From Pirellulales bacterium (GTDB lineage Bacteria; Planctomycetota; Planctomycetia; Pirellulales; JACPPG01): DNA of 54,177 nucleotides. Numbering within the stretch: the stretch's first letter is position 1; each line of letters opens with the position of its first letter. Positions 11,762-32,020 of the stretch are shown one piece after another. The notes under the pieces are model-generated. The model was not told the origin of the DNA, did no database searches, and was given only the letters and a program-made list of their open reading frames with translations. The DNA is taken from positions 1 through 54,177 of the forward strand of contig DASXEJ010000095.1 of assembly GCA_036490175.1 (NCBI GenBank). The letters are read 5' to 3'. A program made the translations under genes and the position numbers.

Positions 11762-14521
11762 CTACTCGGCTACTCGAGGACGCACGACGCGCGGTACCTC
11801 GTCCGACAGAACGCGCGGCAGCAAAGGCAATGCCGTATCGATCGTCATATCAGCAAGCCGGCTGGCGGCTGCGGTTGGTTGGTCCAGAGATTGCTCCAGG
11901 GATTTCGATTGCTCCAGAATCTGGGCTGCGCGGCCGCTATGGGGGCTGGCGCTATCGCTCTGCTCACTGGCCTTGACCACTCGTTGCAGGTTGGCCTCGT
12001 GCGCCTCGAGGTACGACTGCGCTTGCTGCCAGTGGGGCGATAGATCAAGCGCCTTGCTCTGCCAATTGATAGCTTCGCGGTAGGCGGCCTGCGCGCGATC
12101 GAACGCGCGTCGGCTTTCGCAAGCCAGGCCAAGATTGTTGCAGATCGCGCCCAGACGGCTGGCATATTCAGGCGACTTCGAGTGCGCGCTGGCGAGGCGC
12201 GTGAGGTTAGCTCGCGCGCTGTCGAACTGTTCGATGGCGGCATCGTGGCACTCGCGTTGCGCGAGCAAATAGCCGAAGTTATTTTGCGATACGCCGAGGT
12301 CGCGTAGAAAGGCAACGACTTGAGGCGCCCGCTCGGCAAGTTGCTTCTGCAGGTCGATGGCGCGCTGGTAGGCGGCCGTGGCCTCGTCGAGGCGTCCGTC
12401 CCTCGTTGCCAGCGCCGCAAGATTGTTGAACGTGGTGGCCCATTCTGACTGCCACCGCAAGACTTGCGGCTCTTCATCAGCCAGTTGTTCGAATGCGACG
12501 GCTGCCTGACGATAGGCCGTCTTGGCGTCGGCCCCGGATGCCTGGCTGCACACGTATCCGAGTTGATTGTACGTGGCGGCCAGATCGCCGCGCTGCTGCG
12601 GAGACGCGACGCCCGCGCTTAACTGCATATCAATGGCCCGTTGCAGGTGTTCGCGGGCCGCGACCAACTGCCCCCCTAGCCCTAGCGCCGCGCCGAGATT
12701 GGCATAACTCAGCGCCAGCGACCGCTGCCCTGCGGCATTCTCCGGCTGGCGCTTTACCAGTTGGCTGTGCAGTTGGACCGCCGCACGCAAATGAGACTCT
12801 GCCTCACGGATTCTACCGGCGCGCAGGTAAATCAGCCCCAGATTGTTCTCGCACAGGCTAAGCGGCTGCGATTGATCTTCGCCGTCCTTTTCCGTTTGCA
12901 GAGCTAACCAGAGTTGTTTTGCCGCGCCGTATGCTGCGCACGCCGCTTCGTCATCGCCAAGCTGCTCGTTAATCTGCCCGGACCGATAATAGGCCGAAGC
13001 TGTCTCAGCGCGCACGGTCGCATCAGACGACGGCTGCGCGACGAACTTCCGATAGTACGAGAGAGCCTGGGTCAATAGCCGGTGGCGCACGCGTTCGGCA
13101 CCGGGAATGTTGGTGAGATCCGCCGCGATGCCGGTAAAAACCTCGTCAACGGCGTGCCGGGCATCTTGCAAGTGCTCCGCCGCGCGCTCGTGATTGTCGC
13201 TCGCCAACATGAGCGCGCGCTGCGTCGCTGTTTGCGCCCGCCACACCAAGGCGGCGCTGACCGCGGTGCAGATCATGATCAGCAATAGGGCAACGCCGGC
13301 CGCCGCCACCAGGCGGGCATGTCGGCGGATCCACTTGTCGCACTGGTCGATCAGGGTGGCTGGTCGGGCAATGGTGGGGCGGCCATCCAGAAACGCCCGC
13401 AAATCATCTGCCAGGTCGCGGGCCGAGGCGTATCGTCCGTCCGGCGCTTTCGCTGTCGCCATGGCAATGATGCTGTCTAAATCGCGTGGCACGCGCGCGT
13501 CGCAACGCGCGAGCGATGGCAGCTCGTCCTGCTCAATCTGGCGAATCAATTCCTGGTGCGACTGCCCGTCAAAACCCGGGCGACCCGCAATCAACTCGTA
13601 CAGCGTGAGGCCGAGCGAGTAGATATCCGTGCGATGGTCGACAATGCCCGGCTTGCTGCGCAGCTGTTCCGGGCTCATGTAGCGAAGCGTTCCCAGCAAC
13701 TCGCCGCTGGCCGTCTTTACGTTATCTCGTGCGGTGCGTGCCAGGCCAAAGTCTGTGACCCACAGCTCTCCTTCGCCGCAGATCATAAGGTTCGAGGGTT
13801 TGATGTCGCGGTGGACGATGCCCTGTTCGTGCGCGTGATCCAACGCATCGGCGGCTTGCACAATCCACTGCACCAGCTTATGGCAATCCGCAGCGAGCGC
13901 CGGGAAGCCGACGGGGATTTCCGCCGAGGCGCGAGTGAACGTCCCGTCGTTCCTCTGCGCAGGGCCGCCTGGCGTCGCACGATTATGAATCAACTGCTCG
14001 AGGGTCTGTCCCTCGATCAATTGCATCACGTAGAAGTGCAGGCCGCGCTCGCAGCCCACGGCAAAGACGGGCACGATATGGGGATGCTGCAATTGCGCGG
14101 CGGCGAGCCCCTCGTTTTTGAAGCGCGCCAATTGGCGCTCGTCGAGCATCGAGGCAAACGGCAGGACTTTCAGCGCCACCCGGCGCCGCAGCGAAAGCTG
14201 CTCGGCTTCGTAAACGACGCCCATCCCGCCGCGGCCGATCTCGCAAATGATGCGAAAGTCGCCCAGCCGGCTGGGCATGGGGGGATTGGCCGTCGTGTCG
14301 TCGCCGAGCGGCTGGGCCTGGCACAACATTTCAACCCAGGGCAGATAAGGCGCGAGGTGTGCCGCGTGTTGCGGATGCTGGGCCAGGAACGCCTCGCGGT
14401 CGGGACGCAGTCCCTGTTCAAGTCCCGACAAGTACGATTCGAGTCGTTCCGCCAGGTCGGGACCAATTTCGCCATCGGCCTCCAACATCAGACTCGCCTG
14501 CGACATTCGATCGGTGTTCAC
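11762..14521 (-). CDS. Serine/threonine protein kinase with TPR sensor region
   Basis: A 919-aa membrane kinase. The N-terminal 90 residues resemble the leader common to planctomycete kinases (DREAFLAQHP). The Pkn-type kinase domain (about 90-380) has the glycine loop GRGGMGVVYE, the lysine in VALKVL, the catalytic HRDIKPSN near 237 and DFGLAR. A membrane segment follows near 405-430, and the rest is a series of tetratricopeptide repeats, probably outside the membrane. The GTG start at 14521 overlaps the ECF sigma stop by 4 nt (GTGA), implying coupled translation. Planctomycete ECF groups linked to kinases are known; the kinase is thought to control the sigma factor by phosphorylation. An ATG five codons downstream is a possible alternative start. 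Confidence 0.93.
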   Translation of the reverse strand: MNTDRMSQASLMLEADGEIGPDLAERLESYLSGLEQGLRPDREAFLAQHPQHAAHLAPYLPWVEMLCQAQPLGDDTTANPPMPSRLGDFRIICEIGRGGMGVVYEAEQLSLRRRVALKVLPFASMLDERQLARFKNEGLAAAQLQHPHIVPVFAVGCERGLHFYVMQLIEGQTLEQLIHNRATPGGPAQRNDGTFTRASAEIPVGFPALAADCHKLVQWIVQAADALDHAHEQGIVHRDIKPSNLMICGEGELWVTDFGLARTARDNVKTASGELLGTLRYMSPEQLRSKPGIVDHRTDIYSLGLTLYELIAGRPGFDGQSHQELIRQIEQDELPSLARCDARVPRDLDSIIAMATAKAPDGRYASARDLADDLRAFLDGRPTIARPATLIDQCDKWIRRHARLVAAAGVALLLIMICTAVSAALVWRAQTATQRALMLASDNHERAAEHLQDARHAVDEVFTGIAADLTNIPGAERVRHRLLTQALSYYRKFVAQPSSDATVRAETASAYYRSGQINEQLGDDEAACAAYGAAKQLWLALQTEKDGEDQSQPLSLCENNLGLIYLRAGRIREAESHLRAAVQLHSQLVKRQPENAAGQRSLALSYANLGAALGLGGQLVAAREHLQRAIDMQLSAGVASPQQRGDLAATYNQLGYVCSQASGADAKTAYRQAAVAFEQLADEEPQVLRWQSEWATTFNNLAALATRDGRLDEATAAYQRAIDLQKQLAERAPQVVAFLRDLGVSQNNFGYLLAQRECHDAAIEQFDSARANLTRLASAHSKSPEYASRLGAICNNLGLACESRRAFDRAQAAYREAINWQSKALDLSPHWQQAQSYLEAHEANLQRVVKASEQSDSASPHSGRAAQILEQSKSLEQSLDQPTAAASRLADMTIDTALPLLPRVLSDEVPRVVRPRVAE

Positions 14522-15147
14522 GATAAACCCTCGTCGGTCAGTGATTGTCGTAGTCGGTCAATGGCCCTGACCCACAGCATTCTGGTGGCGGCGGCCGTTC
14601 GCCCCAAGCGCTGTGCAACCTCCTCGAAAGAGAGCTCTTCCAAGTGGCGCAGCACCAGAACGTCGCGGTATTGCGACGGTAGCTTTGCCAAATGGTCGGC
14701 CACGGTTGCCGCCCGTTCTGACGACTCGGCTCGATCGATCTGCGCAGGGACGGCGGCGCCGAACACCTGCTCTAGCCGGCAGGACGATTGATCGAAGGCC
14801 CGGGCGATGGCATCCAGCGAAACCTCTCTGCGCACATCCCGCTTTTGTGCGGCCAGATGGTGTTCGACAAGCCGGGCGATATTGCGGACCAGGATTTTGC
14901 GCAACCAGGCGACAAATTCCGCCAGAGTCGTTCCGCGGAATTGGACAAAGTCGCGATAGGCTTCGAGAAATGTGTCTTGCACGACGTCGGACGGCGTCGC
15001 ACGCGGCAACAACTCGGGCGTCAACTGCGAACGGGCAAGAATGCGCAAGTAGTTGCGGTACAGCTCCAGCAGGGAACCGAGCGCCCCGGGACCGGCATCT
15101 TTTGCCGACTTCAAGAGTTGCGCCGCCGAACGATCTGATACGGCCAT
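14518..15147 (-). CDS. ECF-type RNA polymerase sigma factor (kinase-linked)
   Basis: A 209-aa ECF sigma factor. Region 2 shows the promoter-melting segment VVQDTFLEAYRDFVQFRG and region 4 shows LPSQYRDVLVLRHLEELSFE followed by a helix-turn-helix (EVAQRLGRTAAATRMLWVRA). ATG 15147 gives the expected N-terminus; a TTG at 15198 would add 17 residues rich in Cys and Trp that are unlike the family. The stop overlaps the downstream kinase start. No separate anti-sigma gene is present, so the kinase probably takes that role. A TATACT sequence at 15183-15188 on this strand could be a -10 element but no good -35 is seen. Confidence 0.92.
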   Translation of the reverse strand: MAVSDRSAAQLLKSAKDAGPGALGSLLELYRNYLRILARSQLTPELLPRATPSDVVQDTFLEAYRDFVQFRGTTLAEFVAWLRKILVRNIARLVEHHLAAQKRDVRREVSLDAIARAFDQSSCRLEQVFGAAVPAQIDRAESSERAATVADHLAKLPSQYRDVLVLRHLEELSFEEVAQRLGRTAAATRMLWVRAIDRLRQSLTDEGLS

Positions 15148-15952
15148 GAGCGGCTCGATATTAAGGATCCATTCGCCGCTACAGTATAAGCATCTCAACG
15201 GGGAGTAGGCACTCGCGCGGGTCGACAGATTTTGACTACAGGGGCTGCCCCGGCAGGCGCTACTTTAGTAGGCCGGAAACGACCCGGAATTGTCACGCGG
15301 ATTTATCGCCGCGAGCAGGCGTTTTTTGCTACGAGAGGAGGCCCTGCGTCTGTAAATTCTGATCTGCAAGTAGGTTGCGGGGCGTGTGGCGACGGCGTGG
15401 CGGTAAAAAAGTAGCTCCCCGTTACGGTGTTTACTGCGAATGTTTGCTAACGATGCCAGAGACTTCGTTGCGCGTTAGTCTCGAAATCGGCCTCGTTACC
15501 TAGGGGCGTAAATAAGGTCATGGCGCGGCCAGGGGCAACGCGTTCGCGCTGGCGATGCTTCTAAATGAGCATCGTATGGCTGGTCCGATTTGAGGGAGGG
15601 AGTGCTCGGTGGCCAAATCGTCGATCCGGAATAATACCGGGGCGACTGCCGCAAGCGGGGCCGGAACAGAGGGAGGACGATCGCGAAGTTCAAGTTGAGT
15701 TTTCGTGACTGGGGTCGAGCGAGGCGAGCACCCAGATTGTCGCCAAAATCTGGCGGCGGCGAATACGCCGACCCCAGGCACCCATCGACTTTGCAATCCT
15801 CCTGGGAACAGAAGGTGCCGCCAGGTTGCATCGGGATACGCGTCGCGCACGCCCACCTCGTGCAACATTTGCCCGCCAGAGCATTTCCCCTCATGCGACC
15901 GGCGGCGGCTTGAAAGAAGGGCCTACTCCCGGCGGCTAATCGCACTTGACGC
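15148..15952. other. 0.8 kb intergenic stretch between ECF sigma and serpin genes
   Basis: No convincing gene. It contains the structured repeat at 15677-15804. An open frame across it on the minus strand (15496-15984) was judged non-coding. A small hairpin CGCGG/CCGCG with T6 about ten bases later lies near 15298-15330 and is too weak to call a terminator. The remainder is featureless to my reading. Confidence 0.5.
15677..15804 (-). repeat. Structured dispersed repeat, copy 1
   Basis: Read on the minus strand it starts CAGGAGGATTGCAAAGTCG and ends AACTTCGCGATCGT. A second copy lies at 30475-30606 on the plus strand. Three nested stems are visible here: CTGGGGTCG (15709-15717) with CGACCCCAG (15769-15777); CCAGATT (15732-15738) with AATCTGG (15747-15753); and CGGCG (15757-15761) with CGCCG (15766-15770) around loop AATA. 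The outer and third stems share two bases. The outer stem is a perfect 9 bp. It lies about 530 nt upstream of, and in the same direction as, the ECF sigma gene. Confidence 0.8.
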
Positions 15953-17809
15953 TTAGCTGCTGCGCCGTGCAGTCGTGGTCGCAAACCGGGCGACTGAGGC
16001 GATTGCCGATCGAGCGTATTGATTGACAGTATCTCCGTCGACGTCCGCCGCGCCAGACATCACCTGATCAACCGCTGCGGCATGGCTCTGATCCGATGGG
16101 CCGATAAAACTTGCCAGCGGAGCCGTGGCGCTCGACACAGACGGTGTCGCGGTCGAAGAAGCTATTTGTGCGGGCACTGCGGCCCACGACAGCGCTTCGG
16201 CAGCGTTATCGCTTCCCGAAAACCCGTTCGCAGCAGCAGAACGCAATGCCTGTTCAGCCGACAGGGGGCTGGCAGACGGACTTAAACCGGAGCTAGGAAA
16301 GGGTAATGGCCCCGTCCACACGTGGGTGCTAGAGACCGGCGGGGGCGCGTGTTCTGGTTGCGGTGTGTTGGCAGGCGGAACGATGGCCGGGGCCGACGGA
16401 TCCCCCTGATTGCTGAGCGGATCAGCTTCTTGTCCCATGAATAGCACGCTGCCGGATTGCGTGTCGCGGATCATGTACAAAAACGGATGATCGGCATCGA
16501 ATGCTATAGGTATCGTGGGATCCATTGTAACCACCGTGACGTGAACCAATCCCACTCCGGTGGCGGCCGCGGCCTCGGTGCCTGACTCGCCAACATCGAT
16601 AAATGCTTTGTGTACGACGGCCGTGATGTTCAACAAACTCGGGTTAGTCATGCCCGAGAAATCCGCGTTGCGTTGGAATGGATCGATCATTCCCAATGTC
16701 GTCAAGGGCGGGACCAGGTCGAATTGGGAGGTGAGCGTGAATTTGGGGAGTGAAACGGCCACGTCCTGCCGGCTGAGGCCCGCTAGCCAACCGTTGAGGT
16801 CGCTAGGGAGTTGGCTGACACTCAAGCCGGCTGCTCCGCTAGTGGTGGGGAGCATGATGTCCATGACCATCCGTCCACTGGCGTAGGGTAGTTCGACGAT
16901 TTGAAATCCGTCACTCTGCATGTACTTGAACGAGTCGGTCTGATGCATGGTCGAAACTTGCTCTGCCTCCCCTGAGCTGAGCGTAAAGTTGGCGCTATAA
17001 GTCATGGCCGCGTTGAATCCGCTCGACCATCCCCCCTGGAAGTACAGAGCATTGGCCAGCACGAGCTTGGTGAACTGGTTGATCGAGGCGTCGGAGAAAA
17101 GATTTTGGATCTTGCCGTTGGTCTGTTGGGAAACCCAATTATTGATCGTTTGTATGGCCGCATCAGGATTGCCCGCGAAGTTGGCCTGATTGAATGCGCC
17201 CCCGTAGGAGGTCTGCATGGTGTCAAGGAACTGCGTGAGGAATTGCAGCCCCTGTTGACCCCACAGCGCGTCGGCAACCGACAACGCGTATTGGCCTTGG
17301 CCGGCGCTATTCAAATCAGCCAGCAAGGTGCCAAACTCCTGGGCGGTGTCGGCCTGGCTCCCGCTTAGGTGCAGCACGCTGGCCATCTGCGCTGCGGTCT
17401 CGCCTTGGGCGCCGGCATAGGCCATGGCCAAAGCAGTCGAGATGCTCAGCGGCGAGAGGAGCATGTTCCCGCTGCCGCCGGGCGTTGTCTGCAACTCGTT
17501 GTAAAGATCGAGTCCGAGTGCATTGATCGACTGACCGGCTGCCGTCTCGTCGGCAATCTGCGCCGAGGTAAGAACCGGCGCGGCGGAGTTGGTATTGCCC
17601 GTCGTCGTCACGGGCGTTAGTACGGAGACTCCGGCAGGTGGCGCCGTACCGAACCGCAGCGGGCCGACAAAGGGGGCCACGGTCAGCAGATCGCGCGACT
17701 CGAGCGATTCGATCCGTAGCGGCCGCGACAGCTGCTTGCGATGGGGCCGACGCGATGCGGATCGGCCCCAAATGTTACTCAGTCGCTTGCGCTGCTCCTT
17801 CGCAAACAT
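15953..17809 (-). CDS. Serpin-family protease inhibitor with LEPR-like N-terminus
   Basis: A 618-aa protein. ATG 17809 follows GGAGAA at a good distance; an in-frame start nine codons upstream lacks support. The basic N-terminus carries RIESLESRDLLTVAP, close to the LEPR-XLL motif. The serpin domain runs from about residue 80 to 460: NMLLSPLSISTALAMAYAGA at the start and FDADHPFLYMIRD at the end. The hinge of the reactive loop, ESGTEAAAATGVG, has the small residues needed for loop insertion, so it is probably inhibitory. Counting from the hinge places P1 at a Val, but the loop is about seven residues longer than alpha-1-antitrypsin and a Met downstream is possible. A Pro-rich, then Ser/Ala-rich tail of ~150 residues follows. 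Likely extracellular; target unknown. Confidence 0.9.
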   Translation of the reverse strand: MFAKEQRKRLSNIWGRSASRRPHRKQLSRPLRIESLESRDLLTVAPFVGPLRFGTAPPAGVSVLTPVTTTGNTNSAAPVLTSAQIADETAAGQSINALGLDLYNELQTTPGGSGNMLLSPLSISTALAMAYAGAQGETAAQMASVLHLSGSQADTAQEFGTLLADLNSAGQGQYALSVADALWGQQGLQFLTQFLDTMQTSYGGAFNQANFAGNPDAAIQTINNWVSQQTNGKIQNLFSDASINQFTKLVLANALYFQGGWSSGFNAAMTYSANFTLSSGEAEQVSTMHQTDSFKYMQSDGFQIVELPYASGRMVMDIMLPTTSGAAGLSVSQLPSDLNGWLAGLSRQDVAVSLPKFTLTSQFDLVPPLTTLGMIDPFQRNADFSGMTNPSLLNITAVVHKAFIDVGESGTEAAAATGVGLVHVTVVTMDPTIPIAFDADHPFLYMIRDTQSGSVLFMGQEADPLSNQGDPSAPAIVPPANTPQPEHAPPPVSSTHVWTGPLPFPSSGLSPSASPLSAEQALRSAAANGFSGSDNAAEALSWAAVPAQIASSTATPSVSSATAPLASFIGPSDQSHAAAVDQVMSGAADVDGDTVNQYARSAIASVARFATTTARRSS

Positions 17810-18117
17810 AATTCTTCTCCAACAGATCGAAATCAAGGGAGGGCCAGGGCCGAACGGACAAACGCAAAAGTGGATTCATGTCCCCCATAGTCCTAAAGGG
17901 CCGACTTTAGTCGCAGATTGTCACGGTGGCTGCCACGAGTAGGGCGGCCGATTGAACGCGGCGGGCCGCCGAAACCCGCTGGGGGCAGAGACCATTCCAA
18001 GATTCCGGTGGTCGCCTGCCACGGGTGGAACTGAGTTGTTTTCTAGCGATTTTCGGGCGGCTTCCGACCAATTGGCCGGTCACCAGACAACCAGGGTGCA
18101 TGATTTTCGCCCATGAT

Positions 18118-27343: not shown

Positions 27344-30289
27344 TCAATTCTCGCAGGTCGGTACGGCCGGCGCAGCGGCTGCGGCCGGTTCTCCGGCAGA
27401 CAACTCGCGTAAGAGAACGTTGGCCAAGGTGCAATTCCATTTCGTGGTTTTCGTGGCCACGCATTTTTCCAAGAACTGGCGTGCCAGCTCCTGATGCGCG
27501 TGGTCCTGGAAGTATCGCGCGGCGAAGTACTCTAAATTCGCCTGCTCGCCCGCGTCGGTCGATTTAAGAATGTCGTTGAGTGCCTCCACGTCTAGTGTGG
27601 CGTCCGCCGGCAGGTGGCACACATTGTTCAACCATTTGGCGAACTCGATCGTGGCCTTTTGCACGCCGGAGGGGCTTTGATATTGCGGCCCGCGATCGAC
27701 CGCGCCCATGAGCGCCTTGTCGCGGGCCTCGGTGTCGCCGGCGGCGTCGGCGAGCAATCCCAGGTGCAACGCGGAGTACGGGTTTCCCGAACTCTCGAAC
27801 GAACGTGCAAAGGATTTCCGGGCCAGCTCGTTATTTCCTGCGAGCACATGATAGACACCCAGATGGTCCCAGTCGTACGGGTTCGGGCTGAGCGACAGCT
27901 GCGGGGCGTACTGCTTGGCCAGCGTGCGGGCCCCTTCCAAATCGCCGTGCGCTGTTCGGCGGCACCAGAAGTACCAATCGAGCGCTGAATTGGTATATCG
28001 TTCCGACGTGGCGCGGATCAGCTGCTCGGACTCGTCCCATTGCTGCAAGGATTCGTAACATTCAGCGGCGCACATCATGGCCCAGGCGGCTCCCGTCTGA
28101 GCGGCCGCGTGCGCGTAAGGAAGTGCCTGGTCCCAGTCTTTCTTCTCCATGAAGTAGCGGGCCAGCTTGACTTGTGTTTGGGCGTGCGAGAGGGCGAAAT
28201 CTTCGTGATTGAGCGACTCGTCGAGCGCCTCTTTCCATTTGTCCGGCTGTTTCTGCCTCCAGTAATTGTCGGCCAGATACTGATAACCCCACTGGTCAGG
28301 CGACAACTCGACGTATCGTTTCAAACATCGTTCTGCGTCGGCGAATTGTCCTAGCTGCGCGTATCTGATCGATAGCGCTTTGGAGACGACGGGCTGATTG
28401 CTGTAATCTTGCTCCCAGTCCTTCATCTTGGGGGGCGAGAATTCGTGATCATAGAGGACCAGCAGGGCAACGGCTTGCGGCGAATGGGGGCTGACGGCAA
28501 ATAGCTCGCGTGCCATACCACGGTTCTGCGAGTAGTAGGCCATTTGTTCCAAGTCTTCGGCAACCATGTCCGTGTGACGCCACATGGCACTCCATAGTCG
28601 CGTCCGTATGCTGTCGCGCGCCGCGCTGGCATAGTTGGCGCGTCTTTGAGTGGGGTAAAGAGTCAGCTCCACGTCGACCGGTTTTGCGCTTTCACAGAGA
28701 GCGACGATTTGCTCTACGTCGCGCTGCGGATTCAACACCGCGGTTTTGACGAGCGGCAAATAGGGATGATCGCCGACGGCTGCGTAAGCGGGTACTAGCT
28801 GGTCACGGTAGCTGGCTGATGGGAGGCCAAGCCCGTCGTGAAAGAATTCCAGACGTCGATAGACATGCACTAGCGTTACATCCTCGACCAGCCGTGCGAG
28901 CAATTCCCAGGACGGTTCCCTCGTGTCGTCGCCGGCGGCGCCAGCAGTCGCGAGGCGTTTGACCAGGGTTGCTCTTTTCGCGCCGCCGGCCCAGGCCGGC
29001 TCAGATTGGAGCCCGCCAAAATCTGGCGCGAGGTTGTCCAACGACTTGTTGACGCTCAGCGGCAGGTTGGGCATCTGGCGCAGCCTGGCGGCAATTGTCT
29101 GGCCGAGCACGAGCGGCCCTTGCACCGTTGTCTTGTGTCGACTGATGACGCCGGTATAGCGCGCCATCGAATCACAGATGCAATAGCATTCGGGTATTTC
29201 ATCGAGTGCTTTGCTGCCGGCGGTCAACGTCAGGCTTTCACAGTTCGAGTTCTCGACCACGAGAAACCGGCAGAGTGCTGCGAATTGCCTTAAATCAACC
29301 TCGGCAGGCTCCTTCCGAAGCGCCTGGGCATCGTAATGGCACAACGCCACGAGCAGCGTCTCCCACGCGGTCGATCGATCTTTCTTGCCGGCCTCGGCAG
29401 GGGGCGCGTCGGCGCCAGAATTAGCCGGATCGGTTGCTGCCTTCAGGTCCGACAGTGCCGTGGCGTGCAGCCCGGCCAGGCCCGCCGCGTAGGCACGATG
29501 TTTCAGCGACCAGGGACTTTTCTTCTCGGTCTCGACCAGCCGCTGTGCGTACAGTAGCGAACGGGCGTGGAACGCCTTGTGCGAGGCATTCCAATGAAAC
29601 TTGGTCAATTGTCCCAAATGGGCGTAGGCTCGGGCTAATGCGGCCAGCGTCTCGGGCGATTCTCCTTTTTCGCGTTGCAATTCGTGCAGCTCGCGCAGCG
29701 CGGCAAACTGCGAGAAAAAGTTCATCTCGGCCAGTTGCTCGTATACGCTGGCGGGCACTGTGACGGTCGGGTCCGCGCGATGGGCCTCTCCGCGAAAATC
29801 AGCCTTACGCAGGGCATCGGCAATCTCGCTGCGCGACAGCTCTTCGGCCGCCACGACGAGCGCGAGATAGTCGACCGTCTTGTCCGAGGCCAATGGCAGC
29901 GGGATTTCCTTTTCGTAGAGCACGGTCAGACCTTCGCCGCTGCCACGAGTCAACCGCATGCGCACGAACTTGTCGGCGCTTTCGGCGGTCGAGATGTTAA
30001 TGGTCTGCACCCGATCGGTGTCGGTCGAGGGCATCGTCTCGCGCAAGGTCATATCCCGCGTGGCCAGGCCAAGCTGGTCCCGCGCCGCGATCAAGACCGC
30101 TTGCCGTGCGATCTCGCGAACGAGCAACCTGCCAGCGGATTGCGGCACCTTAAAGTCGGGCTCGGCGGCCGTCAGGCAGATCGTGACGGGCGTGTCTTCA
30201 TTGCTTGCTGGGTCGGCGGCCGCGGCGTGTGCACAAAATGCCCAACTGAGAGCAACCATCAAGAATGGTTGCCAAGAAGCACTTCGCAT
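27344..30289 (-). CDS. Secreted helical-repeat (TPR-like) protein, unknown function
   Basis: A 981-aa protein from ATG 30289 with an ideal GGAGGT site 5 nt upstream. A signal peptide ends near residue 25 (FCAHAAAADP). Residues about 30-190 may form a compact N-terminal domain. The rest is a helical solenoid of TPR-like repeats, for example ALAYAHLGQLTKFHWN-type segments near 215 and WAMMCAAECYESLQQWDESE, AKQYAPQLSLSP and GVYHVLAGNNELARKSFARS toward the C-terminus. No catalytic motif is seen. It precedes the RND pump 1 genes by about 200 nt in the same direction and may share their transcript. A periplasmic scaffold or assembly factor is possible; function is unassigned. Confidence 0.82.
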   Translation of the reverse strand: MRSASWQPFLMVALSWAFCAHAAAADPASNEDTPVTICLTAAEPDFKVPQSAGRLLVREIARQAVLIAARDQLGLATRDMTLRETMPSTDTDRVQTINISTAESADKFVRMRLTRGSGEGLTVLYEKEIPLPLASDKTVDYLALVVAAEELSRSEIADALRKADFRGEAHRADPTVTVPASVYEQLAEMNFFSQFAALRELHELQREKGESPETLAALARAYAHLGQLTKFHWNASHKAFHARSLLYAQRLVETEKKSPWSLKHRAYAAGLAGLHATALSDLKAATDPANSGADAPPAEAGKKDRSTAWETLLVALCHYDAQALRKEPAEVDLRQFAALCRFLVVENSNCESLTLTAGSKALDEIPECYCICDSMARYTGVISRHKTTVQGPLVLGQTIAARLRQMPNLPLSVNKSLDNLAPDFGGLQSEPAWAGGAKRATLVKRLATAGAAGDDTREPSWELLARLVEDVTLVHVYRRLEFFHDGLGLPSASYRDQLVPAYAAVGDHPYLPLVKTAVLNPQRDVEQIVALCESAKPVDVELTLYPTQRRANYASAARDSIRTRLWSAMWRHTDMVAEDLEQMAYYSQNRGMARELFAVSPHSPQAVALLVLYDHEFSPPKMKDWEQDYSNQPVVSKALSIRYAQLGQFADAERCLKRYVELSPDQWGYQYLADNYWRQKQPDKWKEALDESLNHEDFALSHAQTQVKLARYFMEKKDWDQALPYAHAAAQTGAAWAMMCAAECYESLQQWDESEQLIRATSERYTNSALDWYFWCRRTAHGDLEGARTLAKQYAPQLSLSPNPYDWDHLGVYHVLAGNNELARKSFARSFESSGNPYSALHLGLLADAAGDTEARDKALMGAVDRGPQYQSPSGVQKATIEFAKWLNNVCHLPADATLDVEALNDILKSTDAGEQANLEYFAARYFQDHAHQELARQFLEKCVATKTTKWNCTLANVLLRELSAGEPAAAAAPAVPTCEN

Positions 30290-30474
30290 GGCGGACCTCC
30301 GTAGGAAAAGTCAGAGTCACCTGAGCGAGCACAATCGACCGGCACGACGGGCAACGAGCAGTGGTTGCCATCTCTGCGGACTCGAGCGCCAGCAAGATAT
30401 GCGGCGACGATCCACGCGCCATTAGCACTCTACTGCTGCAGGAACACGAAAACAAGGATTCGGCCCTCATGACT

Positions 30475-30606
30475 CAGGAGGATTGCAAAGTCGATGAGTG
30501 CCTGGGATCGGCGTATTCGCCGCCCCCAGAATGTCGCGAGAAACTGAGGGCTCGCTTCGCTCGAACCCAGACCATCCAAAAAGCAAAAATGGAACTTCGC
30601 GATCGT
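30475..30606 (+). repeat. Structured dispersed repeat, copy 2
   Basis: Homologous to 15677-15804 in inverse orientation over its whole length, with a 4-nt length difference near the 3' end. The first 55 nt are nearly identical. The loop hairpin CGGCGTATTCGCCG (30509-30522) is unchanged. The outer stem CTGGGATCG (30502-30510) with CGAACCCAG (30562-30570) keeps 8 of 9 pairs, with an A-A mismatch. The inner CCAGATT stem of copy 1 is not well kept. It ends about 190 nt before the first gene of the pilus-like cluster and has the same direction. Confidence 0.8.
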
Positions 30607-30690
30607 TCGGTCTTGATGACCGGTGTGGTCTGAAACTGACGATGCTGACGGCGTTTTTCCGCAGATCCGTGGCATGGCTTCCCGATTGCC

Positions 30691-30793: not shown

Positions 30794-32020
30794 TTGACGA
30801 CCGATTACTCACTTGGCGGTTTTCGCAGCCGGCTCGCGAACCTCGATAGCACGACTGATGCCTATGCCACGCGATTCGTGGATGTGTTGCTAACGGCCGG
30901 CCGCAGCCTGGGCGCCAGCGACTTGCACCTGTTACCCACCGATGCGGGCATGGAAATTCGCCTCCGCATCGACGGCGTGCTAGAGCAGCTGGGAACGTTC
31001 CCGCCGGGAAAAACATCGGACGTCATATCGCGGCTGAAGGTTCTGGCGGAGTTGCTCACGTATCGCACAGATGTGCCGCAGGAGGGGCGCATTCGCGATC
31101 CGGACGCCGAGATTGAAATGCGCGTGAGCACGTTTCCCACACTGCACGGCGAAAAAGCAGTGGTGCGGCTGTTTGCCGCGGTTGCTTGTTATCCGTACCT
31201 TGCCGATCTTGGGTTGCCCGCCACGGTCGCAACGCAATTGAACCGACTGTTGGACGAAACTTCGGGTGCGATAATGATTGTCGGCCCGGCAGGCAGCGGC
31301 AAGACGACCACGGCCTATGCTTGCCTGCGCGAGTTAGTGCGGCGCTCGGGGGGACGAAGTATCGCGACGTTGGAAGACCCCGTCGAAGTGGCCCTGGCGG
31401 GCGTGGCACAGTCGCAGGTCAATGCACGCGCGGGCTTGGACCTGGCGACCGGCCTGCGATCGCTCTTACGGCAAGATCCGCAGGTGATCATGGTGGGCGA
31501 GATGCGCGATCCGGTCACGGCTGGCATCGCCTTGCAGGCCTCGCTTACCGGACAGTTGATGTTGACCACATTTCATGCCGGTAGCGCCGCCGGCGCGATC
31601 AGCCGGTTGGCGGATATGGGGGTCGAGCCGTATGTCTTGCGTTCGGGCATTCTGGCCGTCGTATGTCAGCGCCTGGTGCGCAAGCTTTGTTCGTGCGCGA
31701 TTGAGAGCGATGCGCCCGAGGCGCGGCTCGGTTTGCCCGTTGCCCAGGCACGCCTGGCGGGTTCTTGTCCGCAATGTCACGGGACGGGATATTGCGGACG
31801 CACGCTGCTGGCCGAAATGCTTGCGATGGAAATGGGGGAAGTCCCGGCCGGAGTCTTGTCACGTGCCGACATGGTCAAGCTCGAACGGGCAGCCCTCGAC
31901 GGCGGCATGTTGAGCCGTTGGCATTGGGCACTGCAGGCCGTCGAAACAGGGCTTACCAGTGCCGCCGAGGTCCGCCGAGTGCTCGGTTTTACCGATGCGT
32001 TGGGACCCACAGCCAGCTAG
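30794..32020 (+). CDS. GspE/PilB-type secretion ATPase
   Basis: A 408-aa hexameric ATPase of the type II secretion/type IV pilus family. TTG 30794 is used because GGGAG lies 7 nt upstream and the next ATG would remove conserved sequence. Landmarks: GASDLHLLP and IRLRIDGVLEQL of the N2 domain, Walker A GPAGSGKTTT, the Asp box ATLEDPVE, Walker B QVIMVGEMRDP and the His box TTFHAGS. A zinc-type knuckle CSC...CPQCHGTGYCGR follows, as in GspE/PilB. The MshEN/GspE N1 domain present in most family members is missing, so the protein is short. It heads a seven-gene cluster and stops one base before the first F gene. Confidence 0.92.
   Translation: MTTDYSLGGFRSRLANLDSTTDAYATRFVDVLLTAGRSLGASDLHLLPTDAGMEIRLRIDGVLEQLGTFPPGKTSDVISRLKVLAELLTYRTDVPQEGRIRDPDAEIEMRVSTFPTLHGEKAVVRLFAAVACYPYLADLGLPATVATQLNRLLDETSGAIMIVGPAGSGKTTTAYACLRELVRRSGGRSIATLEDPVEVALAGVAQSQVNARAGLDLATGLRSLLRQDPQVIMVGEMRDPVTAGIALQASLTGQLMLTTFHAGSAAGAISRLADMGVEPYVLRSGILAVVCQRLVRKLCSCAIESDAPEARLGLPVAQARLAGSCPQCHGTGYCGRTLLAEMLAMEMGEVPAGVLSRADMVKLERAALDGGMLSRWHWALQAVETGLTSAAEVRRVLGFTDALGPTAS

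Follow-up and report, generated by a model that had tools for sequence, protein, structure and literature searches.

What is the hairpin-rich repeat of about 130 nt that lies at two places in this DNA, and how did it come to be there? The window, meaning the whole stretch of DNA that was analysed (54,177 nucleotides from a Pirellulales bacterium), had been read in the original prediction as holding two copies of either a non-autonomous element or an RNA-structured regulatory element. The match between the two sites of roughly 130 nt was real: within the window, copy 1 and copy 2 aligned over 132 nt (82% identity, E = 1e-32), and the alignment showed both the nearly identical stretch of about 55 nt at one end and AACTTCGCGATCGT at the opposite end. 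The tetraloop-like hairpin CGGCGTATTCGCCG was identical between the copies, and the 9-bp outer stem (CTGGGGTCG/CGACCCCAG in copy 1) was retained at 8 of 9 positions in copy 2 (CTGGGATCG/CGAACCCAG). Both sites had been located correctly, but the true limits fall a few bases further out than first given, at 15673-15804 and 30475-30610. We assigned the following features around them.

14518-15198, minus strand: gene for a sigma-70 region 4 protein (PF04545), downstream of copy 1
15663-15673, minus strand: copy 1 target-site duplication, right copy CCCTCTGTTCC, overlapping the final base of the element
15673-15804, minus strand: copy 1, a 132-bp element (very probably an ISAs1-type MITE with a REPIN core), one of 16 aligned genomic copies
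15673-15690, plus strand: copy 1 right terminal inverted repeat, GAGGACGATCGCGAAGTT on the plus strand, 15/18 against the right-end consensus GACTTCGCAATCGTCCTG
15703-15782, minus strand: copy 1 REPIN core, GGGTGCCTGGGGTCGG..CAG, spacer, CTGGG..CGACCCCAGTCAC, a core common to REPINs of other genera
15787-15804, minus strand: copy 1 left terminal inverted repeat CAGGAGGATTGCAAAGTC, matching the ends of ISAs1-family insertion sequences (ISs) in other genomes
15805-15815, minus strand: copy 1 target-site duplication, left copy CCTTCTGTTCC, 10/11 identical to the right copy
15953-17836, minus strand: serpin gene (PF00079), ending about 150 bp before copy 1
27344-30289, minus strand: gene for a TPR protein (PF07719), divergent, upstream of copy 2
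30462-30473, plus strand: copy 2, possible decayed target duplication GGCCCTCATGAC, weak, 9/12 against GGTCTTGATGAC at 30609-30620
30475-30610, plus strand: copy 2 of the element, 136 bp
30475-30492, plus strand: copy 2 left terminal inverted repeat
30497-30577, plus strand: copy 2 REPIN core
30593-30610, minus strand: copy 2 right terminal inverted repeat, degenerate, 14/18
30794-32020, plus strand: gene for a type II/IV secretion ATPase (PF00437), downstream of copy 2

Both copies lie between genes, as had been claimed, and flanking genes were identified on each side: copy 1 has the stop of the serpin gene about 150 bp away on one side and the start of the sigma-70-like gene about 475 bp away on the other, and copy 2 lies between the divergent TPR protein and type II secretion ATPase genes. 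The serpin gene itself scored 365 bits; serpins are a family of protease inhibitors that is uncommon in bacteria.

The repeat proved to be far more widespread than two copies. In the source genome (7.58 Mb, 393 contigs, 95.8% complete), blastn found 16 copies and a covariance model recovered the same 16 and none further; with 16 genomic copies, the case of a repeat limited to the two in the window therefore does not apply. Pairwise identity between the copies ranged from 66 to 92% (median = 0.77) and their length from 124 to 147 bp, the majority being 130 to 136 bp long. Aligning all 16 gave a consensus that begins with an 18-bp left end, CAGGAGGATTGCAAAGTC, and runs over about 4 nt to one arm, GGGTGCCTGGGGTCGGCGTATTCGCCGCCCCCAG, then across a spacer of roughly 13 nt to the other arm, CTGGGGGCTCGCTTCGCTCGACCCCAGCCACCC, and over about 12 nt more to the right end GACTTCGCAATCGTCCTG, the two ends being inverted repeats of each other (CAGGASGATTGCRAAGTC). 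Duplicated targets were found directly outside the ends (for example GGCCGTCCCCC, TAGCARGTCATT and TGCGCRCCAC, and CCTTCTGTTCC / CCCTCTGTTCC at copy 1), with a length of about 9 to 11 bp for the set as a whole. Using mismatched left-right flank pairs as the null for the duplication score, we found that flank similarity was 5.7 for the true pairs versus 1.8 for the mismatched ones (Mann-Whitney test, P value = 5e-8), and that 7/16 copies reached a score of at least 7, compared with 0.8% of the null. Not every copy is clear-cut: the duplication is weak at window copy 2, and elsewhere in the set several copies have a weak duplication or ends that are damaged. The end pattern, with two mismatches allowed, occurred 57 times in the source genome versus 11 times for the reversed control. 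Inverted ends together with target duplications are the mark of a DDE-type transposable element.

We then compared these ends with those of known elements by searching GTDB genomes, one for each species, for exact matches to the 18-bp end pattern. At least 119 stretches carried the pattern, and among the matches listed they were mostly from Planctomycetota and Chloroflexota, some of them with two facing ends 1,224 to 1,243 bp apart. Three stretches from Dehalococcoidia (L181, L183 and L214) enclosed a transposase between matching ends; the two transposase halves of L181 and L183 scored 95 and 43 bits against NCBIfam NF033564, the ISAs1 family, and the first of them also matched Pfam PF13808. 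Because the same ends surround an ISAs1 transposase in other genomes, we identify those of the window element as ISAs1 ends. Target duplications in the ISAs1 family are 8 to 10 bp long (ISfinder), and the duplications of the element (about 9 to 11 bp by the scoring used) fit that length. The likeness is confined to the 18-bp ends, however: the ISAs1 members seen in Chloroflexota and Planctomycetota, among the matches listed, are 1,224 to 1,243 bp long with a DDE transposase, whereas the window element lacks a gene for one and its core bears no resemblance to the IS interior, so that it was not derived from such an IS by internal deletion. The three Dehalococcoidia copies look recent, and in all of them the transposase is split into two reading frames, which suggests either a lesion common to them or programmed frameshifting.

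The source assembly (95.8% complete, 393 contigs) yielded no intact ISAs1 transposase. The one trace of ISAs1 in it is a decayed gene at C303:82131-82520, which contains an in-frame stop and scores 27.8 bits, less than the family cut-off. A lone cognate end lies at C303:81964, about 150 nt beyond the last aligned residue of the relic and in the position that the full-length ISs predict. With this decayed gene abutting a cognate end as the only trace here, the likely partner of the element is thus a relic in this genome. The DDE_Tnp_1 ISs of the source genome (L140 to L142) were considered as partners and rejected, as matching ends were not found. Two of them, which are different DDE_Tnp_1 matches, adjoin each other on one contig (C391:1525-4600), and at least one of the two is an entire insertion sequence, whose 16-bp ends read AGCAGGCTGCTGAAAA.

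Since ISs elsewhere combine the same ends with an ISAs1 transposase, and a decayed copy is present here, we conclude that the 132-bp element is a gene-less MITE mobilised by ISAs1, with two ISAs1 ends around a REPIN core (probability of roughly 0.88). The non-autonomous element of the original prediction is thus borne out by the inverted ends, the target duplications, the 16 dispersed copies, and a partner that is present elsewhere and a relic here. An ISAs1 transposase acting in trans would have bound the 18-bp ends, cut the target with a stagger of 9 to 11 bp and spread the 132-bp unit; amplification in the source lineage would then have been followed by loss of the transposase. Because the ISAs1 partner has decayed, the family is probably immobile now.

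The core of the element consists of two REP hairpins in inverted orientation (GTGG/GTGC-CTGGGG..CCCCCAG), with a tetranucleotide foot of GTGG on the right arm and GTGC on the left. Of 396 genomes sampled across the order, at least 22 had a matching core (E 1e-6); with no more than two candidates scored per genome, this count is a lower bound. Other families of the order contained tens of copies that were about 74 to 95% identical over the matched part. In most other genera sampled the core stood alone: the flanks of their REPINs, which served as a control, mostly had no inverted repeats. The 132-bp element was not present in the genomes of the same genus. One of these, G004, carried naked REPINs as several doublets and several singlets, as expected of a REP/REPIN population, and neither the window type nor the G004 type of REPIN was found in the other three (G001 to G003). 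Several of the genomes compared here are draft metagenome bins.

These observations raise the alternative that the family is an ordinary REPIN population moved by a RAYT, with the flanking inverted repeats and duplications being incidental. The core is indeed a REPIN, naked copies occur in related genera, one of them beside a RAYT, and the source genome has two RAYT-like genes (L108 and L109). The case beside a RAYT is in G018, where a 178-aa gene matches the REP-associated tyrosine transposase model NF047646 (87 bits, cut-off of 80) and is flanked on each side by a window-type REP, the sole cognate RAYT that we found; among the loci inspected from a PF01797 scan of six relatives, just one had this REP beside it. 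The copies in the source genome, however, have outer ends in a fixed register, with a few decayed, and neither blastn nor the covariance model found a naked core copy there. RAYT-type enzymes, which belong to the HUH family, act on single-stranded DNA, and target duplications of 9 to 11 bp (P value = 5e-8) are not expected of HUH single-strand transposition. Neither source-genome RAYT adjoins the element; both were rejected as partners, being bracketed by other palindromes or by none, and in the case of L109 by a different hairpin, CATGCCCACG. We therefore regard movement by a RAYT as an extremely improbable account of the source-genome family, and ISAs1-mediated mobilisation as the better one.

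Two of these loci are of interest in themselves. The G018 locus (L137, contig C374, 134-974) is a complete REPtron in which the 178-aa RAYT gene lies between CTGGGGTCGA REPs, with a near-perfect REPIN downstream. L109 (source genome, C272, 1158-1829) is a RAYT homologue that shares 38% identity with the one in G018, and the hairpin that brackets it (CATGCCCACG..CGTGGGCATG) represents a second REP family.

The palindromes also bear on the other half of the original prediction, a structured RNA with a regulatory role (small RNA or terminator-like) that selection would preserve for its fold. Strong hairpins had been described, and this holds for the consensus core of the family (DNA-fold z = -6.8) but only unevenly for single copies (z = -2.1 and -0.5 in the window), with window copy 2 folding no better than shuffles (z = -0.5). 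Strong palindromes and an intergenic position would suit such an RNA. On the other side, the element had no Rfam match at the gathering threshold, and no terminator-like or promoter-like site was found at copy 1. The covariation check that had been proposed gave no support for a conserved RNA fold across the 16 copies, with an unfavourable covariation term (RNAalifold, +1.38) and a two-sided change in 2 of 21 pairs. Furthermore, the same-genus genomes are without the element, bar the naked REPINs in one of them. A regulatory RNA is thus unsupported and very improbable. The view that a conserved peptide is unlikely agrees with our data, since at most 12 of the 16 copies are free of stops in any one frame, their lengths vary from 124 to 147 bp and the sequence is nearly palindromic.

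Returning to the reading of the element as an ISAs1-mobilised MITE, we evaluated whether its pairing of ends and core is a single case. When every end match in the listed GTDB loci was paired, at least 74 distinct short elements (80 to 420 bp) emerged, from Planctomycetota and Chloroflexota, and these showed target duplications as well (score of 6.6 versus 0.4, P value = 4e-26). Their cores fell into about 16 groups, mostly palindromic, between which no similarity was detected; core types within ISAs1 ends include CGCCAAGGACGCCAAG.., CCACAGAGGACACGGAG.., GTCATTCTGAGCGAAGCGAAG.., CTCATCCTGAGCTTGTCGAAGG.. and TAGGGTCCGCTGTGCGGACC.., and a few matches to some of these cores were seen outside ISAs1 ends. 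Compared with shuffles, 84% of the 74 cores folded with a z below -3, versus 8% of neighbouring DNA of equal length (median z of -5.6 and -0.4, respectively). Some ISAs1-ended MITEs are nested or in tandem, and some of their cores differ (L213, 5607-5986; L287, 1973-2286; L200, 184-531).

The excess of strongly palindromic cores among these non-autonomous elements (among the matches listed) would be explained if short ISAs1 elements functionally required such a core, for instance because it prevents two short ends from clashing or favours cruciform extrusion, so that any palindrome would suffice. Yet four short elements (L206, L227, L232 and L257) have cores that are not palindromic, and the autonomous ISs have a transposase gene where the core would be; we consider a required core unlikely.

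The converse combination, one REPIN in several kinds of ends, was seen as well. Reading by eye, we found in G038 a REPIN inside ends GGTAGTGGGCCARTTTGAT with 8-bp duplications (CAGCAGTC, GTC[C/G]AGGC and GAATTTTG), and the same REPIN inside ends GGTAGTGATGCATTTTGC and inside TCGCCTAATTTGA with the duplication AAAAGGGCCG. G220 and G330, which belong to different families, have this REPIN between CAGTAGTTCC.. ends, with what look like 5-bp duplications (L330 and L338). Further REPIN end types in G018 are less certain, and a paired-flank test there gave no excess over mismatched pairs because the ends are common to the copies. In addition, one locus of G038 (L163, contig C165) is a hybrid, with a left end of the GTGATGCA family, a right end of the GGGCCAATTTGAT family and one REPIN core between them. 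Ends and core thus appear to recombine both ways, the same ends with many cores and the same REPIN with several end types.

The route by which the palindromes entered the transposon is one that we infer from such arrangements. A RAYT may have inserted a REPIN, as single-stranded DNA, into the centre of a short ISAs1 MITE that already existed, after which the REPIN would have been copied as cargo; the exposed loop between the inverted ends would be a natural target for it. This order of events is supported by two loci, L329 (G220, C232) and L343 (G252, C259), in which REPINs lie between the arms of near-perfect inverted repeats of 26 bp and 20 bp, respectively, and by the use of single-stranded DNA by RAYT-type enzymes; we put it forward tentatively, at somewhat less than even odds. 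Alternatively, ISAs1 and other transposases may capture REP-like hairpins between pseudo-ends, or aberrant gap repair or template switching at the hairpins may place ends around them. The many unrelated palindromic cores in the same ends would fit such capture, as would the REPINs inside 20- to 26-bp inverted repeats at L329 and L343, and the hybrid L163 favours this order, being the outcome expected of template switching at a core. Capture by itself leaves the commonness of naked REPINs in related genera unexplained, and no intermediate was seen; we consider it less likely than not.

The window element may be one instance of a general, modular class of bacterial mobile DNA, in which REP/REPIN palindromes, moved as single strands by RAYTs, are repeatedly taken up as cargo between ends that belong to DDE transposases of unrelated IS families, so that two different enzymes would spread the palindrome and the ends could swap across the core. 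We place the existence of this class just short of an even bet. Among the source-genome copies, the REP arms were better conserved (0.94 and 0.88) than the ends (0.85 and 0.81), a comparison that is biased because the copies were detected via the core. A pure transposase-cargo view does not explain the higher conservation of the arms, which could reflect later use of the hairpins by the cell.

Among known systems, REPINs and REPs with their RAYTs likewise have two inverted hairpins and a GTGG-type foot, and a RAYT is flanked in this way in G018, but in the source genome no free copy was found and the REPIN lies within ends of a transposase type that are accompanied by target duplications; its foot, moreover, is GTGG/GTGC and not GTAG (PMC3116915, PMC3733652). 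QMITE2 of Coxiella burnetii is a MITE of 150 to 190 bp with inverted ends, direct repeats of 7 to 11 bp and a GTAG REP in its core, and its small copies resemble bare REPs (PMC5896051). It is like the window element in being a MITE with inverted ends, direct repeats and a REP inside the core, but a single REP is described in its core (PMC5896051), whereas the core of the window element is a REPIN built from a different REP family and bounded by known ISAs1 ends, and ends and cores occur in many combinations. The TIRtrons of Pseudomonas, degenerate REP units joined to unrelated stem-loops and called "bizarre structures," flank tyrosine transposase genes (PMC3733652), whereas the outer ends in the window are those of a DDE transposase family. 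The SMR-A repeats of Haloquadratum (about 110 bp) insert into palindromes of other mobile elements such as IS605/PATE, but unlike the window element they do not duplicate their target, and no known transposon has ends like theirs (PMC3119063). The open-access papers searched gave no description of ISAs1 ends enclosing a variety of palindromic cores, or of a single REPIN core in several IS-type ends, and a text search of the literature with the core sequences found no related paper. QMITE2 was the one precedent that we found for a REP inside the core of a MITE, and the scale on which ends and cores are combined here appears to be new.

Few unexplained repeats in bacteria are as common as short intergenic palindromes, and here one such palindrome has been traced to two distinct mobility systems within 132 bp. 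If the modular class exists, it would explain how several orphan intergenic hairpins, CGCCAAGGACGCCAAG, ATTCTGAGCGAAGCGAAG and CCACAGAGGACACGGAG among them, ended up between IS ends in distant phyla, where we found them. If repeated capture makes these combinations, REPs would have a second route of spreading, including into genomes without a cognate RAYT, and how REP-like repeats originate and outlive their transposase, a long-standing question, would become testable by transposition assays.
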